Both the position numbers and the translations under genes were made by a program. From Kiritimatiellia bacterium (lineage in GTDB: Bacteria; Verrucomicrobiota; Kiritimatiellia; JAQICX01), in contig JAQICX010000050.1 in NCBI GenBank assembly GCA_027858345.1, forward strand, positions 1 to 37,464: a DNA stretch of 37,464 bases, in the 5' to 3' direction. The notes beneath the pieces were generated by a model. It was not told where the DNA came from, ran no database searches, and saw only the letters and a program-made list of their open reading frames with translations. Position 1 is the stretch's first letter; every line of letters starts with the position of its first letter. Positions 1,451-28,890 of this stretch are shown in pieces.

Positions 1451-1610
1451 TGCGTATTCCTTTTTTTTTGTTATAAGTATTGAGTGTTGTAAATCATATG
1501 CCATTTACAAAGTAAGTTCATATTTTGACAAAAATATGCTATTTTGTAAATAACATTTTTTTTGTACTTTTGGTTTATGACATGGACATGGTGTGTGGCA
1601 TTGTGTAGAA

Positions 1611-1639
1611 TTGACAAATTAATGATAAATGGGTTTTAA
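1611..1639 (+). promoter_or_regulatory. Probable sigma-70 promoter of the GH20 gene
   Basis: A perfect TTGACA at 1611-1616 is followed after 17 bases by TTTTAA at 1634-1639, a weak -10 box. The start of the hexosaminidase gene lies 28 bases further on, preceded by AAAAGGGG. The region 1451-1666 separates two divergent genes and is AT-rich; I see no clear promoter for the leftward gene. Confidence 0.45.
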
Positions 1640-1666: not shown

Positions 1667-3205
1667 ATGGGACAGGATATACCAGTTATACCACAACCAG
1701 TTAAAGTCAGTTTGGCTGAAGGAAGTTTTGAGTTTGATGCCGAGACAGTTGTTTGCTGTGAATCAGGCTATGGCATTGAAAATGTGGCAAAGGTTTTATG
1801 TGATTATATTGGATGTGAGAATGGCGTTATTGACTGTTCAGGCACCGAGTGTACAAATTCTATATGTTTTAAGCTGAATAAGGATTTGCCATTTGAGTCT
1901 GAAGAAGGATATTGCTTAAGTATCGACTCATCTAGAATTGTTGTAACAGCAAAGGCTCTTAATGGACTTTTTTATGGCATACAGACTTTGAAACAACTTA
2001 TGCCAGCATCTATGATTTCAACTAAATTATCAGAGTTCAGTTTGCCATGTTTGGAAATCACAGATTATCCACGCTTCAAGTGGCGCGGAATGCACCTTGA
2101 TACAGCTCGTCATATATATCCTGTTTCAATGGTCAAGAGCTACATTGATATGCTTGCTTTCAACAAGATGAACAAGTTTCATTGGCATCTGACTGAAGAT
2201 CAGGGCTGGCGTATTGAGATCAAGAAATATCCAAAGCTAACAGAAATTTCTTCAGAACGGGCTGCAACACCAGTGCTTGGTGATAGAGAGTCGTTGGATG
2301 GTATACCATATAGTGGTTTCTATACACAGGAAGAAGCAAGAGAGATTGTTAAGTATGCTGCGGATAGATTTATTACTGTTGTGCCGGAAATAGAGTTACC
2401 AGGACATTCTGTTGAGGTTTTGGCAGCATATCCAAACCTTGGTTGTACAGGTGGACCATATGAAGTTAGATGTTTCTGGGGAATTGAAAAAGATGTTTAC
2501 TGTGCTGGCAACCCTGATGTTTTTGAGTTTCTTCAAGATGTATTTGATGAAATCTTAGAAATTTTTCCATCTGAATATATTCATATTGGAGGAGATGAAT
2601 GTCCTAAGGAACGTTGGAAAGAGTGTCCAAAGTGTCAGGCAACAATTAAAGAAAACAATTTAAAAGATGAGCTTGGACTGCAAAGCTGGTTTATACAAAA
2701 GGTGGAACAGTATTTGAATTCCAAGGGGCGAAATATGATTGGTTGGGATGAAATACTTGAAGGTGGTTTAGCTCCTAATGCAACTGTTATGGTTTGGCGT
2801 AATGATGGTATGAAGGATGCCGTGTTTGCTGCGAATTCCGGAAACGATGTGATTATGTCGCCAGGCTCTCATTGTTATTTTGATCACTATCAGGATAAAC
2901 CTGAAAATGAGCCGCCAGCAATTGGAGGTTTCTTGCCGCTAGAAAAAGTATATGCCTTTAATCCAATGCCTCCTGAACTATCTAAAGATAAGCAGAAGCA
3001 TATCATTGGTGGGCAGGCAAATGTTTGGAGTGAGTATATGCCTACTGTTGAGCAAGCTCAATATATGTCATATCCTAGGGCTTTTGCAATTGCAGAAAAA
3101 CTTTGGTCAACAGAAGATGTTAATGATTTTGATAATTTTAAAGTGCGTCTTCCAAATATTTTGAAGCATCTTGATGAACTGGGAATAAATTACAGAAAAC
3201 TTTGA
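1667..3205 (+). CDS. Beta-N-acetylhexosaminidase, glycoside hydrolase family 20
   Basis: The 512-residue enzyme should remove terminal N-acetylhexosamine from glycans or amino-sugar oligosaccharides by substrate-assisted catalysis. An N-terminal GH20b-like domain (about 1-130) precedes the TIM barrel. Barrel signatures are KWRGMHLDTARH, the KFHWHLTEDQGWR strand, ELPGHS, and HIGGDE near residues 306-311, whose Asp-Glu pair is catalytic in the family. The C-terminal QANVWSEYM segment carries the conserved active-site Trp region. An in-frame GTG lies 3 bases upstream, but the ATG at 1667 sits 6 bases after AGGGG and is the better start. No signal peptide is seen, so I infer a cytoplasmic enzyme acting on imported oligosaccharides. 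It is transcribed alone from its own promoter. Confidence 0.95.
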   Translation: MGQDIPVIPQPVKVSLAEGSFEFDAETVVCCESGYGIENVAKVLCDYIGCENGVIDCSGTECTNSICFKLNKDLPFESEEGYCLSIDSSRIVVTAKALNGLFYGIQTLKQLMPASMISTKLSEFSLPCLEITDYPRFKWRGMHLDTARHIYPVSMVKSYIDMLAFNKMNKFHWHLTEDQGWRIEIKKYPKLTEISSERAATPVLGDRESLDGIPYSGFYTQEEAREIVKYAADRFITVVPEIELPGHSVEVLAAYPNLGCTGGPYEVRCFWGIEKDVYCAGNPDVFEFLQDVFDEILEIFPSEYIHIGGDECPKERWKECPKCQATIKENNLKDELGLQSWFIQKVEQYLNSKGRNMIGWDEILEGGLAPNATVMVWRNDGMKDAVFAANSGNDVIMSPGSHCYFDHYQDKPENEPPAIGGFLPLEKVYAFNPMPPELSKDKQKHIIGGQANVWSEYMPTVEQAQYMSYPRAFAIAEKLWSTEDVNDFDNFKVRLPNILKHLDELGINYRKL

Positions 3206-13874: not shown

Positions 13875-14187
13875 GGTTTTGTAAAAAGTTTTCAGGCTCA
13901 AACTACTCCCATGTTTTTTTAGACCTGGTTCCTTGTAAATCAATGGTATACAGATTATTTAGCCTTCTTTTCACGTTTTTTTTCGTCGGTCACCGCCCGA
14001 CGCTACAGGTGCTGTATCTGCAAATGAAACTTAGTCCGCCAAAGCTCCTCCAGGGAACGCCAAGCCCCTGTTTGGCTTAATCATAATATGAGCAAAGCTC
14101 ATTTCACGCCCTTGTCTGTCGCACCGTAGTCAGGCACTGCGAAGGCGGATGCGAGGGGTATTCTGTTTCATAAGTTATGACAGTACC
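13875..14187. mobile_element. Repeat element A (short, diverged member of the GGTwCTGTCAAAA family)
   Basis: The left end GGTTTTGTAAAAAGTTTTCAGG and the right end ATGACAGTACC match, with changes, the ends of elements C and D. Inside are the hairpin unit CGTCGGTCACCGCCCGACG (13984-14002) and the GTCCGCC...CTCCTCC to GAGGGGT module (14034-14159). That module's central slot is expanded by about 100 bp relative to C and D. No transposase or open frame is present. No flanking direct repeat is seen, so it looks older. It fills the gap between two leftward genes. Confidence 0.6.
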
Positions 14188-15174: not shown

Positions 15175-15660
15175 GGTCTGTCAAGAGTTTGAACCTCTTT
15201 TCATCCCTGTTTTGTTATAAATCGACCCCGCTTTGCCCAAGGGCTATGCCGGACAGGTCGGGATAAAGAGTTTTTTCTTATCCCTACAACGGTTATTAGT
15301 TATTAGCAAAGACACTGCCGTGAGCAGGTGAAGAACCCTGTTGTTTGTTATTTCTTAAGGCGTTTACGCCAATCACGGTTCCAAGGGGACAAGCCCCGAG
15401 GTGACCCAAACCAATGCCAACAAGCTTTTTCTTTATTCAAAATTGGACGTTGAACGTTCGATGTTGGAAGTTCTCCTTTGCAACAACACAACTTTCATCC
15501 GCTAAAACTCCTCCCTTTTTTAGGGGAGGTCACCTCGCGTGCGAGCGTGGGAGGGGTGAATTTCCTCCTGCCCACGGAGTGTCCTGTCTAACTCTCTAAC
15601 AGTCTAACCTTCTAACCAACTTTGCTACGGCTATTGGATGTTCAGTTTGTATATATAATG
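15175..15660. mobile_element. Repeat element B (right end truncated)
   Basis: The left end GGTCTGTCAAGAGTTTG and a following TTTTGTTATAAATC match elements C and D. Inside are the TTATTAGTTATTAGC run (15293-15307), GACACTGCCGTGAGCAGGTG (15310-15329), a GGACGTTGAACGTTCGATG run (15444-15462), the CTCCTCCC...GGGGAGG module (15498-15557) and a TCTAACTCTCTAACAGTCTAA run (15587-15607). The part before 15660 (TATTGGATGTTCAG) matches the stretch shortly before the right end of C. The terminal GACAGTACC is missing, and the DRTGG stop codon begins at 15661. The rightward frame 15414-15599 is not a gene. Confidence 0.55.
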
Positions 15661-15999
15661 TTAATTATCCATTAGTTCTTTAAGCTTTGCGCATGTATCA
15701 AATGTTGTGTGCGGGGTTCTCAGCAGTGTTATGTCAAATTCTTCTGCACGTTCAATCATGTTACTGCTAAGATTTTTTCCATTTACGATGACAACGCAGG
15801 ATGCACATACGATGTCTGCTGTTCTGAGCACCTGATCTGTTGCCAGAGAAGATACAATCATTAGTTCGTGTTCGTCAACAACCAGTACGTCGCTCATAAG
15901 GTCTGAAATTGTAACGTTGTTTATTGTTATGTCCTCTGCATCACTTGCCATAAAAATTACGTCGGCATCTAATTGTTTTTGTATATCGTTGATTTTCAT
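15661..15999 (-). CDS. DRTGG-domain protein of the hydrogenase locus
   Basis: The 112-residue product is a single DRTGG-like domain. The core reads TISDLMSDVLVV, then LATDQVLRTADIVCASCVVIVNGK, and ends in MIERAEEFDITLLRTPH. DRTGG domains also occur in phosphotransacetylases and next to CBS domains, and their ligand is not established. Small stand-alone DRTGG proteins are, from memory, regular companions of NADH-linked [FeFe] hydrogenases. An AAGGG ribosome site precedes ATG 15999. It lies between Rex and the CBS-HATPase gene in one direction, separated from them by elements C and B, and probably belongs to the same signalling set. Confidence 0.82.
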   Translation of the reverse strand: MKINDIQKQLDADVIFMASDAEDITINNVTISDLMSDVLVVDEHELMIVSSLATDQVLRTADIVCASCVVIVNGKNLSSNMIERAEEFDITLLRTPHTTFDTCAKLKELMDN

Positions 16000-16013: not shown

Positions 16014-16529
16014 AAATTTCAGGTTCTGTCAAAAGTTTGCAGGCTGAGCCTGCACCCATTTCGTTATAAATCAGTAGGATACAGACTTTTTGGTCTTATC
16101 CCCACCTTTTTTCCAACATCCAATATCCAACACTCAAATCCAACATCCAAGGTAAGACACTCCCGCCTTCGCTCTTCGAGCTACGCCTGACACAGCCGTG
16201 GGCAGGTAAAAACTTTGTTTTTATTATTTTACCTAGGGCGACTTGTCGAGCCGTAGTCTCGAAGAGCGAAGGCTGATGCCCTAGGCAGCGATATTACGGG
16301 CTTTCAGCCCTGTATTTTCGTCGGTCACCGCCCGACGCTACAGATGTTGTATCAGCAATCTAAACCTTGTCCGCCAAAACTCCTCCCGCTTTTAGGGGAG
16401 GTCACCTCGCCTGCGAGGTGGGAGGGGTACATCCTTATTCCTTGGATATTCCGTGTTGGTTATTGGATATTCCATTTAATATATCAGTTATCATGTTTTT
16501 CATACAATTTTTGACAGTACCAAATTTCA
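16014..16529. mobile_element. Repeat element C: 500 bp, terminal inverted repeats, 8-bp direct repeats
   Basis: The element proper is 16022-16521, exactly 500 bp. Its ends are GGTTCTGTCAAAA and, on the other strand, GGTACTGTCAAAA (12 of 13 match). AAATTTCA stands on both sides (16014-16021 and 16522-16529), the picture left by transposition. It encodes no protein. Inside, from left to right, are: hairpin TGCAGGCTGAGCCTGCA (16038-16054), a CCAACATCCAATATCC run (16113-16150), a large inverted repeat built on CTTCGCTCTTCGAG, an ACGGGCTTTCAGCCCTGT hairpin, CGTCGGTCACCGCCCGACG (16319-16337) and the CTCCTCCC module (16369-16428). I call it a MITE-like, non-autonomous element; the mobilising enzyme is not in this window. 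Confidence 0.78.
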
Positions 16530-16542
16530 AGTTTATATATAT

Positions 16543-17193
16543 TTAAGATTGTTTTTCAATATTTTCCTGATTGGCAAAGTGGACAAAATAGAATATGTTT
16601 TCTATTTCTGATTTTATATTTACATTGGATATAAAACAGTCAGCATGATTCTTCAAAAGTACTGGCGTAAAATTCAGTATCCCCTCAATGCCATATCTTA
16701 TCAGGTTTTCTGTTACGGCTGTTGCACTGTTTTCAGAAACGCATATAATTGCAATCTTAATATTGTTATCTTTTATAAAGCTCTCAAGCTCGGAAATGTC
16801 GTATATTGGAATATTTGAGTCATTTAGAGAAGTAACATCTGCCGGAGATATGTCAAAACCGGCTTTTACTGTTATGCCATCTTTTGGATATCTGTAGTAG
16901 TTTAATAGAGCTGAACCAATTCGTCCGCAGCCAACAATTATGACATTCTGTACTTTATCTTTTCCAAGTATTGTATTTAATTTCTCAATAAGCTCATCAA
17001 CGGCGTAACCTCCTCTTTTATTTCCCGTGATTTCAAACATTGAAAAGTCTTTTCTTACCAATGAAGATGAAATTCCAAGGGCATCCGCTAAGTTGTCAGA
17101 AAACACTTTTACAAAACCTAATGATTTAAGTTTGACTGTAATGTTCTTGTATTGCGATAAACGCAGGATTGTATCTTTTGATATTTTCATCAT
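16543..17193 (-). CDS. rex: Redox-sensing transcriptional repressor Rex
   Basis: Rex represses fermentation and hydrogenase genes and leaves DNA when NADH is high. With the ATG at 17193 (or 17190) the protein is 216 residues. It starts MMKISKDTILRLSQYKN, as Rex proteins do, 5-8 bases after AAGG. The frame stays open to 17271, but the extra residues do not look like Rex. A winged helix (about 1-80; LADALGISSSLVRKDFSMF is the recognition part) precedes an NAD(H)-binding Rossmann domain (IIVGCGRIGSALLNYY). It is divergent from the hydrogenase operon at 17445, which it probably controls. Confidence 0.95.
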   Translation of the reverse strand: MMKISKDTILRLSQYKNITVKLKSLGFVKVFSDNLADALGISSSLVRKDFSMFEITGNKRGGYAVDELIEKLNTILGKDKVQNVIIVGCGRIGSALLNYYRYPKDGITVKAGFDISPADVTSLNDSNIPIYDISELESFIKDNNIKIAIICVSENSATAVTENLIRYGIEGILNFTPVLLKNHADCFISNVNIKSEIENIFYFVHFANQENIEKQS

Positions 17194-17280
17194 AACCGCC
17201 TTTTGTAACATTAAAATATAAAAATCTTGAAAACATGACACGATTGTAACAAGAAGAGAGGCTTTTGGCAAATAAAAAAG

Positions 17281-17444: not shown

Positions 17445-17942
17445 TTGAAGAATTCAGTAAAAATTAATGGAGATGTTGAACAAATAAGTTTGACACAAGA
17501 ATTAAAGGATTTCATAAAACTTTGGAAATCCAAGCCGGGAAACCTAATTATGGTTCTGCATCAAGTACAGGAACATTTTGGGTATATTCCTGAGTCAACA
17601 GCATTTGAAGTTGCAAGACTTCTGAATGTTCCAGTTGCCAAGATTTTTGGAGTGATAACATTTTATCATTTCTTTAAGTTGACGAAACCTGGACGCAACA
17701 AGATTGCGGTATGTTTGGGAACCGCTTGTTACCTAAAAGGTAGCGGGGATATCTTAAATGAATTCTCAAGACAGCTTAATGTCGAAATTGGCGAAACAAC
17801 CGCTGATGGTGAATTCACAGTTGAAGCAGTTCGTTGTGTTGGATGTTGTGGATTAGCTCCAGTTATTACATTCAATGGAGAAGTAGTCGGTCGTGTTTCT
17901 TCTAAAGACGTTTCTGGAATTTTAGAAAAATATATGATTTAA
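17445..17942 (+). CDS. hndA: NADH-linked [FeFe] hydrogenase, NuoE-like subunit (HndA/HydC)
   Basis: This small subunit carries one [2Fe-2S] cluster and passes electrons near the NAD(H) site of the NuoF-like subunit. The 165-residue product has the NuoE helical domain (about 15-80; HFGYIPESTAFEVARLLNVP, then FGVITFYHFF) and a thioredoxin-like domain. The cluster Cys pattern is CLGTAC and CVGCC (C-x4-C, C-x3-C). The start is TTG at 17445, 9 bases after AAGGAG; no nearby ATG gives the full domain. It is the first gene of the five-gene operon. Confidence 0.93.
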   Translation: MKNSVKINGDVEQISLTQELKDFIKLWKSKPGNLIMVLHQVQEHFGYIPESTAFEVARLLNVPVAKIFGVITFYHFFKLTKPGRNKIAVCLGTACYLKGSGDILNEFSRQLNVEIGETTADGEFTVEAVRCVGCCGLAPVITFNGEVVGRVSSKDVSGILEKYMI

Positions 17943-17952
17943 TAGAGATATA

Positions 17953-18492
17953 GTGCACGCCAATATAAGTGATATTGTTCTTGATATAGTAGCGAATTCG
18001 ATTGAAGCAGATGCAGAGAAAATTATACTGTCTATATATAATGATAGTAAGTTCCTGAATATTGCGGTTGAAGATGACGGTACAGGAATGGATGAGAATA
18101 CTTTGAAAAAAGTAAAGGACCCATTCTTTACAGATGGCAAAAAACATGTTTCACGAAAAGTGGGGCTTGGAATTCCATTTGTAATTCAGACAACGGAACT
18201 TTGTAACGGCAGTTTTGAGATTTCGTCGGTTTTAAATGAAGGAACGGTAATCAAGTTTTCTGTTGATTTGGAAAACATTGACACTCCACCTACAGGCGAT
18301 TTGGTTTCAACCATTGTAATGCTGATGGGCTATCCCGGTCAGTTTGAGCTTATAGTTAAATATAAGACAATCAATGGTGAATTTGAGATTAGTCGAACAG
18401 AATTGCTGGATGCTTTAGGTGACTTAGAAGATGTATCAAGCATCAAATTGGCAGATGAATATATAACAGGTCTTGAAGAAGATATAAAATAA
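17953..18492 (+). CDS. GHKL ATPase-domain protein inside the hydrogenase operon
   Basis: The 179-residue product starts at GTG 17953, 10 bases after hndA. It contains a compact GHKL/HATPase fold (about 3-115). The N box is DIVANSIEADA, the G1 box EDDGTGMD, the G2 region KVGLGIPF, and a GTVIKF strand ends the fold. No histidine-kinase dimerisation domain or sensor is present. The C-terminal 65 residues are an extra alpha/beta segment of unknown role. Its fixed place between hndA and hndB implies regulation or assembly of the hydrogenase rather than electron transfer, since it has no Cys cluster motif. The substrate is unknown. Confidence 0.83.
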   Translation: MHANISDIVLDIVANSIEADAEKIILSIYNDSKFLNIAVEDDGTGMDENTLKKVKDPFFTDGKKHVSRKVGLGIPFVIQTTELCNGSFEISSVLNEGTVIKFSVDLENIDTPPTGDLVSTIVMLMGYPGQFELIVKYKTINGEFEISRTELLDALGDLEDVSSIKLADEYITGLEEDIK

Positions 18493-18506
18493 GAAAGGTG
18501 TTTGAG

Positions 18507-18899
18507 ATGGCAAAATTAACACTAGATGATTTAAGAAAACTTAGAGATGATAAGAGACAACAGATGTCAAAAAGAGCTCCAGAAGAGGGTTCAGCTGTTG
18601 TTATTGTTGGAATGGGTACATGTGGTATTGCTGCAGGCTCAAAGCAGACATTTGATGCTTTTGTAGAAGAGATTGATTCAAGAAGTTTGCAAAATGTTGT
18701 TATGAAACAGACTGGTTGCATGGGCTTGTGTCATTCGGAACCAACAGCTAGAGTTGTTGTGAATGGAATGCCGGAAATTATTTATGGTAATGTAACACCA
18801 GAAGTAGCTCGTAAAATTGTGCAGAAGCACATCATAAAAGGTGAGTTAGTTAATGATCACATTTTTGATAAACCAGCTGCGGATATCATTAAAGAGTAG
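18507..18899 (+). CDS. hndB: Thioredoxin-like [2Fe-2S] ferredoxin, HndB type
   Basis: This is the small electron-transfer subunit found in HndABCD-type hydrogenases. A GTG at 18498 is in frame, but the ATG at 18507 follows AAAGG at a normal distance and gives the family start MAKLTLDDLRKLRDDKR. The product is 130 residues. An N-terminal helical segment is followed by a thioredoxin-like fold. Cys residues lie in GMGTCGIAAGS and TGCMGLCHSEP, three in all. From memory, the fourth Cys of classical thioredoxin-like ferredoxins is commonly absent in this subfamily, so cluster ligation may involve another residue. Confidence 0.88.
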   Translation: MAKLTLDDLRKLRDDKRQQMSKRAPEEGSAVVIVGMGTCGIAAGSKQTFDAFVEEIDSRSLQNVVMKQTGCMGLCHSEPTARVVVNGMPEIIYGNVTPEVARKIVQKHIIKGELVNDHIFDKPAADIIKE

Positions 18900-18915
18900 A
18901 AAGAGGGAAAAGACA

Positions 18916-20700
18916 ATGGCATTTAAAAATTATATTTTGGTTTGTGCCGGTACTGGGTGTGAATCAGATGGTGCTTTGAAAATCAACGAAGAGTTTAAGA
19001 CTCAACTTGAAGAATTGGGCTTAGACGGTGAAGCTCAGCTTGTAAAAACAGGTTGTTTTGGCTTCTGTGCACAAGGACCAATTGTTAAGATTCTTCCAGA
19101 TGAAACATTCTATGTAATGGTTAAACCGGAAGATGTAAAAGAAATTATTGAAGAGCATATTATCAAAGGGCGTCCAGTTGAAAGACTCCTTTACGATAAA
19201 GAGCAGAAAACAATAAAATCAGGGGTTGAAGAAATTGACTTCTATCAAAAACAATTTCGTATTGTTTTAAGAAACTGTGGTTTAATTAACCCAGCTTCAA
19301 TTGATGAGTACATCGCTCGTGAAGGTTATGGAGCTTTGGAAAAAGTTCTATTTGAAATGACACCAGATGATGTTATCACAGAACTTGAAAAATCAGGTCT
19401 TCGTGGACGTGGTGGTGCAGGTTTCCCAACATTTAGAAAATGGATGTTTTCTAAGGGTGTAGAGAGTGATCAAAAGTATATTGTATGTAATGCAGATGAG
19501 GGTGACCCAGGTGCGTACATGGATAGAAGTACATTAGAAGGCGATCCTCATTCAGTTCTTGAAGCTATGACAATTGCCGGATGCACAGTTGGTGCTGACA
19601 CTGGATATATCTATATCCGAGCTGAATATCCATTGGCAATTGAAAGACTTGAAAATGCAATCGAACAGGCAACTGAATATGGTTTGCTTGGTGAGAATAT
19701 TCTTGGAACAGACTTCAGTTTCACAATTGAATTACGTCTGGGAGCAGGTGCTTTCGTATGTGGTGAAGAGACAGCTTTGTTAACTTCAATTGAAGGTAAC
19801 AGAGGTATGCCGACTACAAGACCTCCTTTCCCAGCGGTTAAAGGTCTATGGGGCAAGCCAACTGTTATTAACAACGTTGAAACATGGGCAAATGTTCCTG
19901 TAATCATCCTTAAGGGTGGTGATTGGTTTGGAAACATTGGCACTGAAACAAGCAAAGGTACAAAAGTTTTTGCTCTAACAGGTAAAATCAAGAATTCAGG
20001 TCTTATCGAAGTTCCAATGGGTACAACACTGAGAGAAATCATTTATGATATTGGTGGCGGTATTCCAAATGGCAAGAAATTTAAGGCGGCACAGACAGGT
20101 GGTCCATCTGGCGGTGTTATTACAGCTGACTATCTTGATACACCAATTGACTATCAGACACTTGCTGACCTAGGTTCAATCATGGGTTCTGGCGGTTTGA
20201 TTGTTATGGACGAAGATGACTGTATCGTTGACGTTGCTAAATTCTATCTTGATTTTACAGTTGATGAATCTTGTGGTAAATGTTCACCATGTCGTATTGG
20301 TGGCAGAACTCTATACAACTTAGTAGACAATCTAACAAAGGGTTTAGGTGCAGAAGAAGATTTTGATAAGATGCTGGAGCTCTCAAAAGCAATGAAGACA
20401 GCTTCTCTTTGCGGTTTGGGTCAGACAGCTTCAAATCCAGTTGTTTCAACACTTAAGTATTTTAAAGACGAGTATATGGCACATCTTGCTGGAACATGTC
20501 CGGCTGGTAAGTGTAAAGATCTTGTCAATTACTCAATTATTGCGGATAACTGTGTTGGTTGTACTGCATGTGCAAGAAGATGTCCTGTTCAAGCAATAAC
20601 AGGTGTTATTAAGGGTGTTCACGTAATTGACCAGACAAAATGTATTAAATGTGGTCAATGTGTTGCAGCATGTAAATTCAAAGCTGTTTTAGTAGGCTAA
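18916..20700 (+). CDS. hndC: NADH-linked [FeFe] hydrogenase, NuoF-like flavin subunit (HndC/HydB)
   Basis: This subunit oxidises or reduces NAD(H) at FMN and is the probable electron-bifurcating core. The frame is open from 18853, but the ATG at 18916 follows GAGGG and begins the thioredoxin-like [2Fe-2S] domain (Cys10, 15, 47 and 51). The product is 594 residues. Next come the NuoF flavin/NADH domain (RGRGGAGFP near 163-171 and CNADEGDPGA near 191-200) and the [4Fe-4S] motif ESCGKCSPCRIGG with its distal Cys in LCGLGQ. At the C terminus are two ferredoxin-type clusters (CVGCTACARRCP and CIKCGQCVAAC). The layout equals HydB of trimeric bifurcating enzymes. Confidence 0.95.
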   Translation: MAFKNYILVCAGTGCESDGALKINEEFKTQLEELGLDGEAQLVKTGCFGFCAQGPIVKILPDETFYVMVKPEDVKEIIEEHIIKGRPVERLLYDKEQKTIKSGVEEIDFYQKQFRIVLRNCGLINPASIDEYIAREGYGALEKVLFEMTPDDVITELEKSGLRGRGGAGFPTFRKWMFSKGVESDQKYIVCNADEGDPGAYMDRSTLEGDPHSVLEAMTIAGCTVGADTGYIYIRAEYPLAIERLENAIEQATEYGLLGENILGTDFSFTIELRLGAGAFVCGEETALLTSIEGNRGMPTTRPPFPAVKGLWGKPTVINNVETWANVPVIILKGGDWFGNIGTETSKGTKVFALTGKIKNSGLIEVPMGTTLREIIYDIGGGIPNGKKFKAAQTGGPSGGVITADYLDTPIDYQTLADLGSIMGSGGLIVMDEDDCIVDVAKFYLDFTVDESCGKCSPCRIGGRTLYNLVDNLTKGLGAEEDFDKMLELSKAMKTASLCGLGQTASNPVVSTLKYFKDEYMAHLAGTCPAGKCKDLVNYSIIADNCVGCTACARRCPVQAITGVIKGVHVIDQTKCIKCGQCVAACKFKAVLVG

Positions 20701-23262: not shown

Positions 23263-23757
23263 AGTTCTGTCAAAAATTTGCAGGCTGAGCCTGCAACCAT
23301 TTTGTTATAAATCAGTAGGATACAGTTCGACACGTAATAAGTGATATGTAAGTTCCCGCTTTGCGAGACTATAATCATTATTTTTTCAATTCAACATCTT
23401 CCCCGAGCCCATTTCCTTCACACTCGGTTACATGGCTGTTCCTGCAAACAAACCGTTAACCTGCAAAGTTTACCCCACTGTAGCCGAGGTCAGCAGACCT
23501 CGGACAATGTTTGCGACCTTTTCAGCATTCGCTCTTCGAGACTAAGACTCAATAAGCCGGAGGTCAGCTAAAATTATGAATCTTGCATCTAACCCTTGTT
23601 CTTCATTTAAGCCCTGTAGCCGAGTCGCCCCGGCTCGGGGAAACAGCAAATCGGCTCTAGTCCGCCAAAACTCCTCCCGCTTTTAGGGGAGGTGTCCGAG
23701 GAACGAGGACGGAGGGGTGTTCTTTTTATGTTTTTTCATATGACTTTTGACAGTACC
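23263..23757. mobile_element. Repeat element D (second well-preserved member)
   Basis: The left 63 bases match those of element C at 59 positions, including hairpin TGCAGGCTGAGCCTGCA (23279-23295). The right end has the same CTCCTCCC module (23660-23718) and ends CTTTTGACAGTACC. The ends are AGTTCTGTCAAAA and, inverted, GGTACTGTCAAAA. The middle is entirely different from that of C: it holds GCCGAGGTCAGCAGACCTCGG (23483-23503) and a GCCGAGTCGCCCCGGCTCGG palindrome. The slot hairpin is GTCC-GAGGAACGA-GGAC. No flanking direct repeat is seen and no gene is present. After it, 23758-23918 holds only a CCCGC-AAG-GCGGG hairpin. Confidence 0.72.
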
Positions 23758-26970: not shown

Positions 26971-28701
26971 ATGAATATGTACAATAAAAAATTTAGAGCT
27001 GCACTGGCTATTTTATTATTCCTGTTAAATGGAATATTTTGTGCTTACAGTGCAGGTTTAAATGAAGATAATATTATTAAGCCATATGTTGGCAAATTAA
27101 CTACTGTTGAGATTGACAGAAGTTCTTTAGGGGTTATGGGAAAATATGTTACAGAGATGGTTGAAGATGATAGCGGTCAAATCATCGTGAAAGTTGTTGT
27201 TCCAGGTGTTCCTCCAAAAGAACGAATATCACAAGACGTTATAACGCGTTTCTCAGGCAGTGATGTAATTGTTTCCAATGTTCCAGCATTTAACTGGACC
27301 TATGGATGCAGCGCAACTTCGGCTGGCATGTTGTGTGGGTATTATGATAGAACTGGTTATTCAAATTTATATACAGGCTCAATAAATGGTGGGGTATGTC
27401 CTCTTGATAATTCAGCTTGGGGGGCTGCCACAGCACCGGGATCTGATGGAGAATGCTCGTTTGTCGCCAGTCATCAGGGAATTGATGGGCGAACGACCAG
27501 GGGGCATGTTGATGACTATTGGACTGACTATAATGATACCGGCGATCCATATTATGGAAAGTGGACACCTCATAATGCTGTGGATTCAGGAGATTGCCTT
27601 GCTGATTTTATGGGAACGAGCCAGTGGTATCCCGTTGAACTGAATAATATTGACGGAGGAACAAGTTTTGCTTACTATTTAGATGGCTCCTCATATTCAG
27701 GCATTACTTTTGGGGATCTTGCTTATGGTGTGCAACGCTATATTAGACATCAAGGATATTCCGTTTCGACTTATTATAATCAACTAATATATGGGTACAA
27801 CGGTAATACTGAAGGGTTTACGTTTGAGCAGTATATGGATTCAATTGATGCGGGGAATCCTGTGTTTATACATGTCACAGGTCATACAATGCTTGGGGTT
27901 GGATATGATGTGGCAACCAGTAATGTTTATCTTCATGACACATGGAATTATGATCAACACTCCATGACTTGGGGTGGACAGTATTCAAGTATGACACATG
28001 TTGCAGTTACTGTTGTCAACATTGATTCCACCATTCCTTTGGATGTTCCAACCAACTTTCAGGCAACGAGTGGAACTTATTCAGATAGTGTTGTCCTAAG
28101 TTGGGATAGTGTGCCAGGGGCTAATCATTATAAAATTTATTATGGAGACTCATTAGGCAATAGGCAAGGTTCTACAGGATGGTTTGCTTCAAATCCCGTT
28201 AATATTGGAGAAGATCCGAGTTCAACTTACTATTATTGGGTTGTGGCCGCATCATCGGCAGCTGGTGCGAATGAAAGTGATTTCAGTTTAGGTGCAACAG
28301 GCTATGCAATAACAAAGATGGTTTATAATGACTGGATTGCAACTAACTCAGTTCCTATTGGAGAACAGGCATGGGATGATGATCCTGCTGGTGACGGTAT
28401 TGAAAATATCTGGAAATATGCAATGGAATTAGACCCTTTAACTTTCTCAGCATGGAGCAATGTTTTTGAATATGCAATTAATAATTATGATGAAGAATTC
28501 TATATTACTTTTGATAAAGCGAAGGTTGCTGATGTTACAATAACTCCGGAGTGGAAAAGTTCTCTGTTGGATAGTGAATGGATGCCAACAAATATGGTCA
28601 GTCAATTGCTTGAGGCCGATTCGACAAGTGAAAAATGGAGATTTGGAATACCATTTTATACTAATGGCTTCATTCGTTTAAAAGTCTCTATGGAGCAATA
28701 A
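26971..28701 (+). CDS. Secreted C39-like cysteine peptidase with FnIII and PVC-type C-terminal domain
   Basis: The 576-residue product has a signal peptide (cut near AYSAG) and a propeptide-like stretch to about 100. A papain-fold C39-like domain (about 102-350) follows. The catalytic Cys is probably Cys113 in WTYGCSATSAGM, His305 lies in VTGHTMLGVGYD and Asp323 in LHDTW. A fibronectin type III-like module (about 358-445) follows, then a tail with DDDPAGDGIENIWKYAMELDP, which resembles TSP3/dockerin-like ends of exported PVC proteins. Two further domain Cys residues (143 and 162) could form a disulphide. I infer an extracellular peptidase; the substrate is unknown. It is transcribed alone from its own promoter and followed by the hairpin array. 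Confidence 0.85.
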   Translation: MNMYNKKFRAALAILLFLLNGIFCAYSAGLNEDNIIKPYVGKLTTVEIDRSSLGVMGKYVTEMVEDDSGQIIVKVVVPGVPPKERISQDVITRFSGSDVIVSNVPAFNWTYGCSATSAGMLCGYYDRTGYSNLYTGSINGGVCPLDNSAWGAATAPGSDGECSFVASHQGIDGRTTRGHVDDYWTDYNDTGDPYYGKWTPHNAVDSGDCLADFMGTSQWYPVELNNIDGGTSFAYYLDGSSYSGITFGDLAYGVQRYIRHQGYSVSTYYNQLIYGYNGNTEGFTFEQYMDSIDAGNPVFIHVTGHTMLGVGYDVATSNVYLHDTWNYDQHSMTWGGQYSSMTHVAVTVVNIDSTIPLDVPTNFQATSGTYSDSVVLSWDSVPGANHYKIYYGDSLGNRQGSTGWFASNPVNIGEDPSSTYYYWVVAASSAAGANESDFSLGATGYAITKMVYNDWIATNSVPIGEQAWDDDPAGDGIENIWKYAMELDPLTFSAWSNVFEYAINNYDEEFYITFDKAKVADVTITPEWKSSLLDSEWMPTNMVSQLLEADSTSEKWRFGIPFYTNGFIRLKVSMEQ

Positions 28702-28703
28702 AT

Positions 28704-28890
28704 GGTCGTTTCACGACCGTTGAATTGGAGCTAAGCTCCTGTTGAATCGCAACTATGTTGCTGGGGAATGCTCTTTTCGAGAGCGTTGAATTGGAGTAAA
28801 GCTCTTGTTTAACAGCAACGTTGTTGCAGGGTAACGAACGCAACGATCTTCGTTGCAAGAGCAAATGTCAAGACGACATTTGCATTGAAT
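28704..28890 (+). repeat. Tandem array of eight short hairpins with GTTGAAT-like linkers
   Basis: Starting 3 bases after the peptidase stop, eight stem-loops follow each other. GGTCG/CGACC (28704-28718), GGAGC/GCTCC (28727-28739), GCAAC/GTTGC (28749-28761), GCTCT/AGAGC (28770-28784), GGAGT/GCTCT with wobble pairs (28793-28805), GCAAC/GTTGC (28815-28827), GCAACGA/TCGTTGC (28840-28856) and GCAAATGTC/GACATTTGC (28861-28883). Loops are 3-5 bases. Linkers recur as GTTGAATT, GTTGAATC, GTTGAATT and ATTGAAT. Stems differ while pairing is kept. There is no coding frame, and the unit and spacer lengths do not fit a CRISPR array. Confidence 0.85.

Follow-up and report, generated by a model that had tools for sequence, protein, structure and literature searches.

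A 500-bp MITE-like element between rex and a DRTGG-domain gene of a Kiritimatiellia bacterium, and its likely IS6-like mobiliser

Introduction

The IS6 family of insertion sequences contains a long branch, which corresponds to clades VII and VIII in the analysis of Harmer and Hall (2019; PMC6807381) and to h and i in the 2021 review (PMC7986276), and for which the relevant passages of these papers give ISHahy6, ISHco2 and ISTet2 as examples. Replicative transposition through cointegrates is, according to the part of the review that treats it, known for IS26-type members only; these form cointegrates which are then resolved by RecA (PMC7986276). For the long branch, the 2019 analysis, in its sections on these clades, found no experimental data (PMC6807381). 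In addition, two miniature inverted-repeat elements (MITEs) of the IS6 family, MITEBth2 and MITEHarch3, are named there from ISfinder (PMC6807381), with lengths of 227 and 336 bp, respectively (PMC7986276). The passages that describe them do not link them to the long zinc-finger transposases (PMC6807381, PMC7986276).

Here, we describe a 500-bp element at positions 16022–16521 of the window (the whole stretch of 37,464 nucleotides that was analysed), together with its family of genomic copies, their ends and duplications, a transposase gene flanked by a matching end, and homologous elements found complete in relatives. The earlier note on this DNA had read the element as a MITE moved by an outside transposase, and the genome-wide copies, their duplications and the matching transposase locus all support this reading, in which the movement itself is deduced from sequence. 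Like MITEBth2 and MITEHarch3, the element measures a few hundred base pairs and has both ends of an insertion sequence while the transposase is absent; in contrast to what is described for these two, the present family has about 23 copies, which vary in length and have mosaic interiors. With considerable confidence, we interpret the element as a MITE-like, non-autonomous derivative of an IS6-like insertion sequence of ~1.85 kb, inserted by a transposase of the type encoded on contig C140 acting in trans, probably via a cointegrate.

Structure of the Element and Its Insertion Site

The 5′ tip of the 500-bp element, GGTTCTGTCAAAA (16022–16034), matches the inverted TTTTTGACAGTACC, which ends at 16521, at 12 of 13 bases, and the perfect 8-bp duplication AAATTTCA flanks the element at 16014–16021 and 16522–16529 (Table 1). 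These ends and flanks had been claimed before, and re-reading of the sequence reproduced them. The absence of an open frame of its own was likewise confirmed, as the largest ORFs within 16022–16521 encode 56–59 residues and none exceeds 59.

Table 1. Coordinates of the element, its parts, its neighbours and related copies in the window.
Feature	Position	Strand	Basis or remark
DRTGG-domain gene	15661–15999	-	gene flanking the element
Target-site duplication, left copy AAATTTCA	16014–16021	+	sequence; family duplication statistics
Left terminal inverted repeat GGTTCTGTCAAAAGTTT	16022–16038	+	common to left ends genome-wide
Conserved left-end region of the MITE family, ~80 bp	16022–16103	+	alignment with other copies
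Mosaic interior with dispersed hairpin repeats	16104–16476	+	segments recur reordered in further copies and beyond the family
Weak Acido-Lenti-1-like module (RF01687)	16266–16311	+	21.1 bits, E 0.089, under the curated cut-off
Hairpin repeat CTCCTCCCGCTTTTAGGGGAGG	16380–16401	+	90 genome places with ≤1 mismatch; control 0
Conserved right-end region with the terminal inverted repeat GGTACTGTCAAAAATTG	16477–16521	-	alignment with other copies
Target-site duplication, right copy AAATTTCA	16522–16529	+	sequence
rex	16543–17271	-	gene flanking the element
Second, decayed family copy, 313 bp	13875–14187	+	repeat search; flanks agree at 6 of 8 positions
Third family copy, 495 bp	23263–23757	+	repeat search; duplication gone

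The position between the rex and DRTGG genes, as stated in the earlier note, is also correct, since the element lies in the 543-bp gap between these two co-directional genes. This gap is the sum of 35 bp, which is the spacing without the insert, and 508 bp, which is the element plus one duplication. The 8-bp target, which is AT-rich, lies 13 bp past the rex stop codon. Nine genomes of the class, none of them from the same genus or family, have the DRTGG gene either overlapping rex or following it with at most about 21 bp in between, where the starts were set by alignment extension and the single gap values are therefore approximate. These relatives lack the insert; that the genomes covered gave no strict empty site with one AAATTTCA counts against our interpretation. 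For the host, the element appears to be a common type of insertion at a neutral place in the operon.

On the other side of rex, the window carries genes for a NuoE-like 2Fe-2S protein, an ATPase and a NuoF/HydB-like subunit (17445–20700), named from their sequences with a Pfam check for the NuoE-like protein only; this gene set resembles electron-bifurcating hydrogenase clusters. Further along, a 66-bp repeat forms a tandem pair with 77% identity (28701–28832).

Copies Across the Genome

The whole assembly (4.03 Mb, 256 contigs) was searched for further copies, which were counted from the searches and from extracted stretches. There are 48 exact occurrences of the end GGTWCTGTCAAAA (22 forward and 26 reverse), compared with a single occurrence of the reversed control pattern, and GGTNCTGTCAAAA with at most one mismatch occurs 132 times compared with 25 for its control. 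Alignment of the copies showed that the left ends (GGTT..., ~80 bp; GGTTCTGTCAAAAGTTT...CTCTTTTCAG..CTATTTTGTTATAAATCAATGGGATACAG) and the right ends (GGTA..., ~45 bp; GGTACTGTCAAAAATTGTATGAAAAATATGAAAA) are each conserved and differ from one another.

The extracted stretches contain 25 inward-facing pairs of ends with a spacing of 168–705 bp, and in 23 of these (168–500 bp) the ends are strong. Seven of the 23 strong-ended copies, with lengths of 249–500 bp, are flanked by perfect 8-bp repeats, namely AAATTTCA, ACAAAAAA, TTTTCTTA, AAAACATA, TTTAAATA, TTATTGTT and GTTAATGT, while only one of 506 mismatched left and right flank pairs gives such a repeat. The duplicated targets are AT-rich. The search for other copies with the same ends, which the earlier note had proposed, thus yielded at least six that possess perfect 8-bp duplications of their own.

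It could be argued that the whole arrangement consists of intergenic hairpin repeats which came together by chance and form no mobile unit, all the more as the interior is rich in dispersed hairpins that are also present outside the family. However, the excess of ends, their pairing at 168–500 bp and the exact duplications far exceed the controls, which rules out a chance arrangement; we regard this explanation as refuted and its probability as negligible. What counts against our interpretation is that a perfect duplication is missing from 16 of the 23 copies with two ends. This loss is compatible with replicative intramolecular events, with recombination between copies or with simple decay. 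Reading ORFs inward of 18 unpaired ends, we recognised no transposase gene in the elements that these ends would bound.

Mosaic Interior and Dispersed Hairpins

The interiors differ between copies, and their segments are shared in varying combinations and also occur outside the family. The hairpin repeat CTCCTCCCNNTTTTAGGGGAGG has 90 genomic copies with at most one mismatch, mostly outside the listed MITE copies, and none was found for the reversed control; in the window it lies at 15508–15529, 16380–16401 and 23671–23692, with about 87 copies elsewhere in the genome. Other Acido-Lenti-1-like modules of the genome score 28–36.5 bits, where the cut-off is 37. Such modules were seen in or near elements of the family at L007:1576–1620 (-), L010:1676–1720 (+) and L003:1663–1706 (-), and two more are located on L057 at 1589–1633 (-) and 1785–1829 (+). 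This suggests that the candidate RNA Acido-Lenti-1 is a dispersed repeat in this lineage.

Judging from the copy alignments, hairpin repeats seem to enter the MITE. In the copies on contigs C62 and C102, the left end is interrupted by a small palindrome; another insertion point is common to those on C102, C60 and C93. The left ends at L043, L054, L041 and L051 show small palindromes at one and the same point in different MITE copies. A more speculative idea, to which we give a minor chance, is suggested by copies that differ in the conserved left end by the exact insertion of a small palindrome: the MITE scaffold may serve as a platform on which tiny mobile hairpins of a separate population (CTCCTCCC..GGGGAGG, Acido-Lenti-1-like and others) land or are exchanged, and these would enter MITE copies at defined points. 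If true, one non-autonomous element would spread several others.

The nested palindromes also account for the strong predicted fold of the transcribed strand, which reaches −202.5 kcal/mol against a mean of −137.3 kcal/mol for shuffled sequences (z −11.4). Such a fold, together with the co-directional genes on either side, could mean that the element, although its ends are mobile, now persists as a structured spacer that is transcribed and serves processing or attenuation in the rex-DRTGG operon. This seems improbable to us, because the same palindromes are found at many unrelated places, the interiors vary between copies and relatives manage without the element. The predicted fold is thus weak evidence of function.

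Candidate Transposase

A search of the genome for the IS6 DDE domain returned a single gene, located on contig C140. Its product is an IS6-like DDE transposase of 502 residues with an N-terminal zinc ribbon, in which D318, D380, E431 and K438 are present and the N-terminal region contains three CxxC motifs. The match to PF13610 is above the cut-off. Among the NCBIfam models, NF033587 (IS6) fits best (E 1e-23), with a score of 83.8 that lies below the cut-off of 125, and the models of related families match more weakly.

Downstream of the gene, GGTTCTGTCAAGAATTCTATGAAAAAAGATGAAAGATAGAGTATC aligns with the consensus of the MITE right end over 45 bp. When the 13-bp tip is left out, the alignment still scores 35, and 2000 shuffles reached at most 33. 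Upstream, the contig stops after ~60 bp; this stub aligns with positions 36–60 of the left-end consensus, including AATGGGATAC, and none of 2000 shuffles aligned as well. By extrapolation from the alignment, the missing left tip would lie roughly 12 bp beyond the end of the contig. The earlier note had proposed to look for a transposase gene with the same ends: this locus matches the MITE at the right end and in a portion of the left region, whereas the left tip falls past the contig end. It counts against our interpretation that the genome, with the C140 contig cut off before this tip, shows no complete autonomous element, and that it has a single copy of the gene. In addition, GGTWCTGTCAAAA contains GG, CTGT and CAAA, which are the end motifs of the IS6 family (GG, cTGTt and caaa). 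Taken from these sequence comparisons, the C140-type transposase is the likely mobiliser of the MITE family, and the family of the element, which the earlier note could not name, is supported as IS6-like with a long zinc-ribbon transposase.

The MITE could also have been moved by the transposase of a different family whose elements have similar ends and duplicate 8 bp. IS1595 is one candidate, as members of this family make 8-bp duplications and the genome encodes two IS1595-type transposases, which lie on contigs C30 and C187 (L075:5580–6720 and L076:1–750) and share 96% identity over 748 bp. However, the resident IS1595 elements have ends of the GGGGTATGCACTTG type, unlike those of the MITE, and their loci show no MITE-like end; the matching end belongs to the IS6-like gene instead. 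IS1595 was therefore rejected as the mobiliser, and an origin of this kind is largely refuted and very unlikely.

Homologous Elements in Other Genomes

Within a set of 288 genomes of the same class, homologues of the C140 transposase were found in ten others, among them Pontiella sulfatireligans F21 (G153) and other Kiritimatiellae or Verrucomicrobiota MAGs. The Kiritimatiellae homologues are 60–62% identical to the C140 transposase and reside in complete elements of ~1.85–1.98 kb with similar ends. Two copies of 1855 bp and one of 1853 bp in Pontiella all have perfect 8-bp duplications, as do four of five 1855-bp copies in genome G160 and a 1979-bp copy in G186. One end of the Pontiella element starts with GT. 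More distantly, an element on a Pediococcus damnosus plasmid, with a transposase of 33% identity, is bounded by GGTACTGTCAAACG and GGTAACGTCAAAAG and also has an 8-bp duplication. Since the complete elements of the relatives and of Pediococcus damnosus have similar ends, this type of end goes with the C140-like type of transposase. A simple scan gave no end pair for the homologue from Geobacillus, nor for that of G054.

Another apparent short derivative lies in G160, at about position 1474737 of contig C1 (L168). It measures 243 bp, has GGTTCTGTCAAAAATTTTATGAAAA and CTTTTGACAGAACG as its boundaries, gave no match to a transposase and lacks a duplication. The left-end consensus of the MITE family found no matching ends in 56 relatives, a scan of GTDB contigs with the left-end pattern returned nothing, and a plasmid DNA search with the element gave no match. 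A literature search with the end sequence and with Kiritimatiellae transposons found nothing.

By its features, the parent element most resembles the IS6 group of ~1.7 kb and ~453 residues, a likeness to be read together with the NF033587 score below the strict cut-off. Both have a DDE transposase with N-terminal zinc-binding CxxC motifs and a further N-terminal extension, an element length of ~1.7–1.9 kb and 8-bp duplications, as far as the long branch is covered in the corresponding sections (PMC6807381, PMC7986276). The present transposases are longer (~500 residues) and come from Kiritimatiellae, whereas those of the branch, as described there, measure ~453 residues and come from Clostridia. 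Furthermore, at least one end of the present elements starts with GG, as was the case for just one long element in the 2019 set (PMC6807381).

Proposed Mechanism and Implications

In the mechanism that we propose, the MITE would keep just its two end regions, which serve as recognition sites for the transposase, and a transposase of the C140 kind, supplied in trans, would bind both of them. For the copy at 16022–16521, we infer that it was moved by the C140 transposase in this way, whereby insertion into the 8-bp AT-rich target 13 bp past the rex stop codon would have duplicated AAATTTCA. By analogy with IS6/IS26, the insertion would probably have proceeded through a replicative cointegrate that homologous recombination resolves. 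The interiors may then diverge by acquiring or swapping other small hairpin repeats.

An orphan repeat thereby receives a family name, and a non-autonomous element is tied to its probable transposase. At the same time, the long branch of IS6 with zinc fingers, which has received little study, would be extended to Kiritimatiellae. The complete multi-copy elements of Pontiella (G153) and G160, combined with the MITE as a substrate, provide material with which IS26-like transposition could be tested in this branch.
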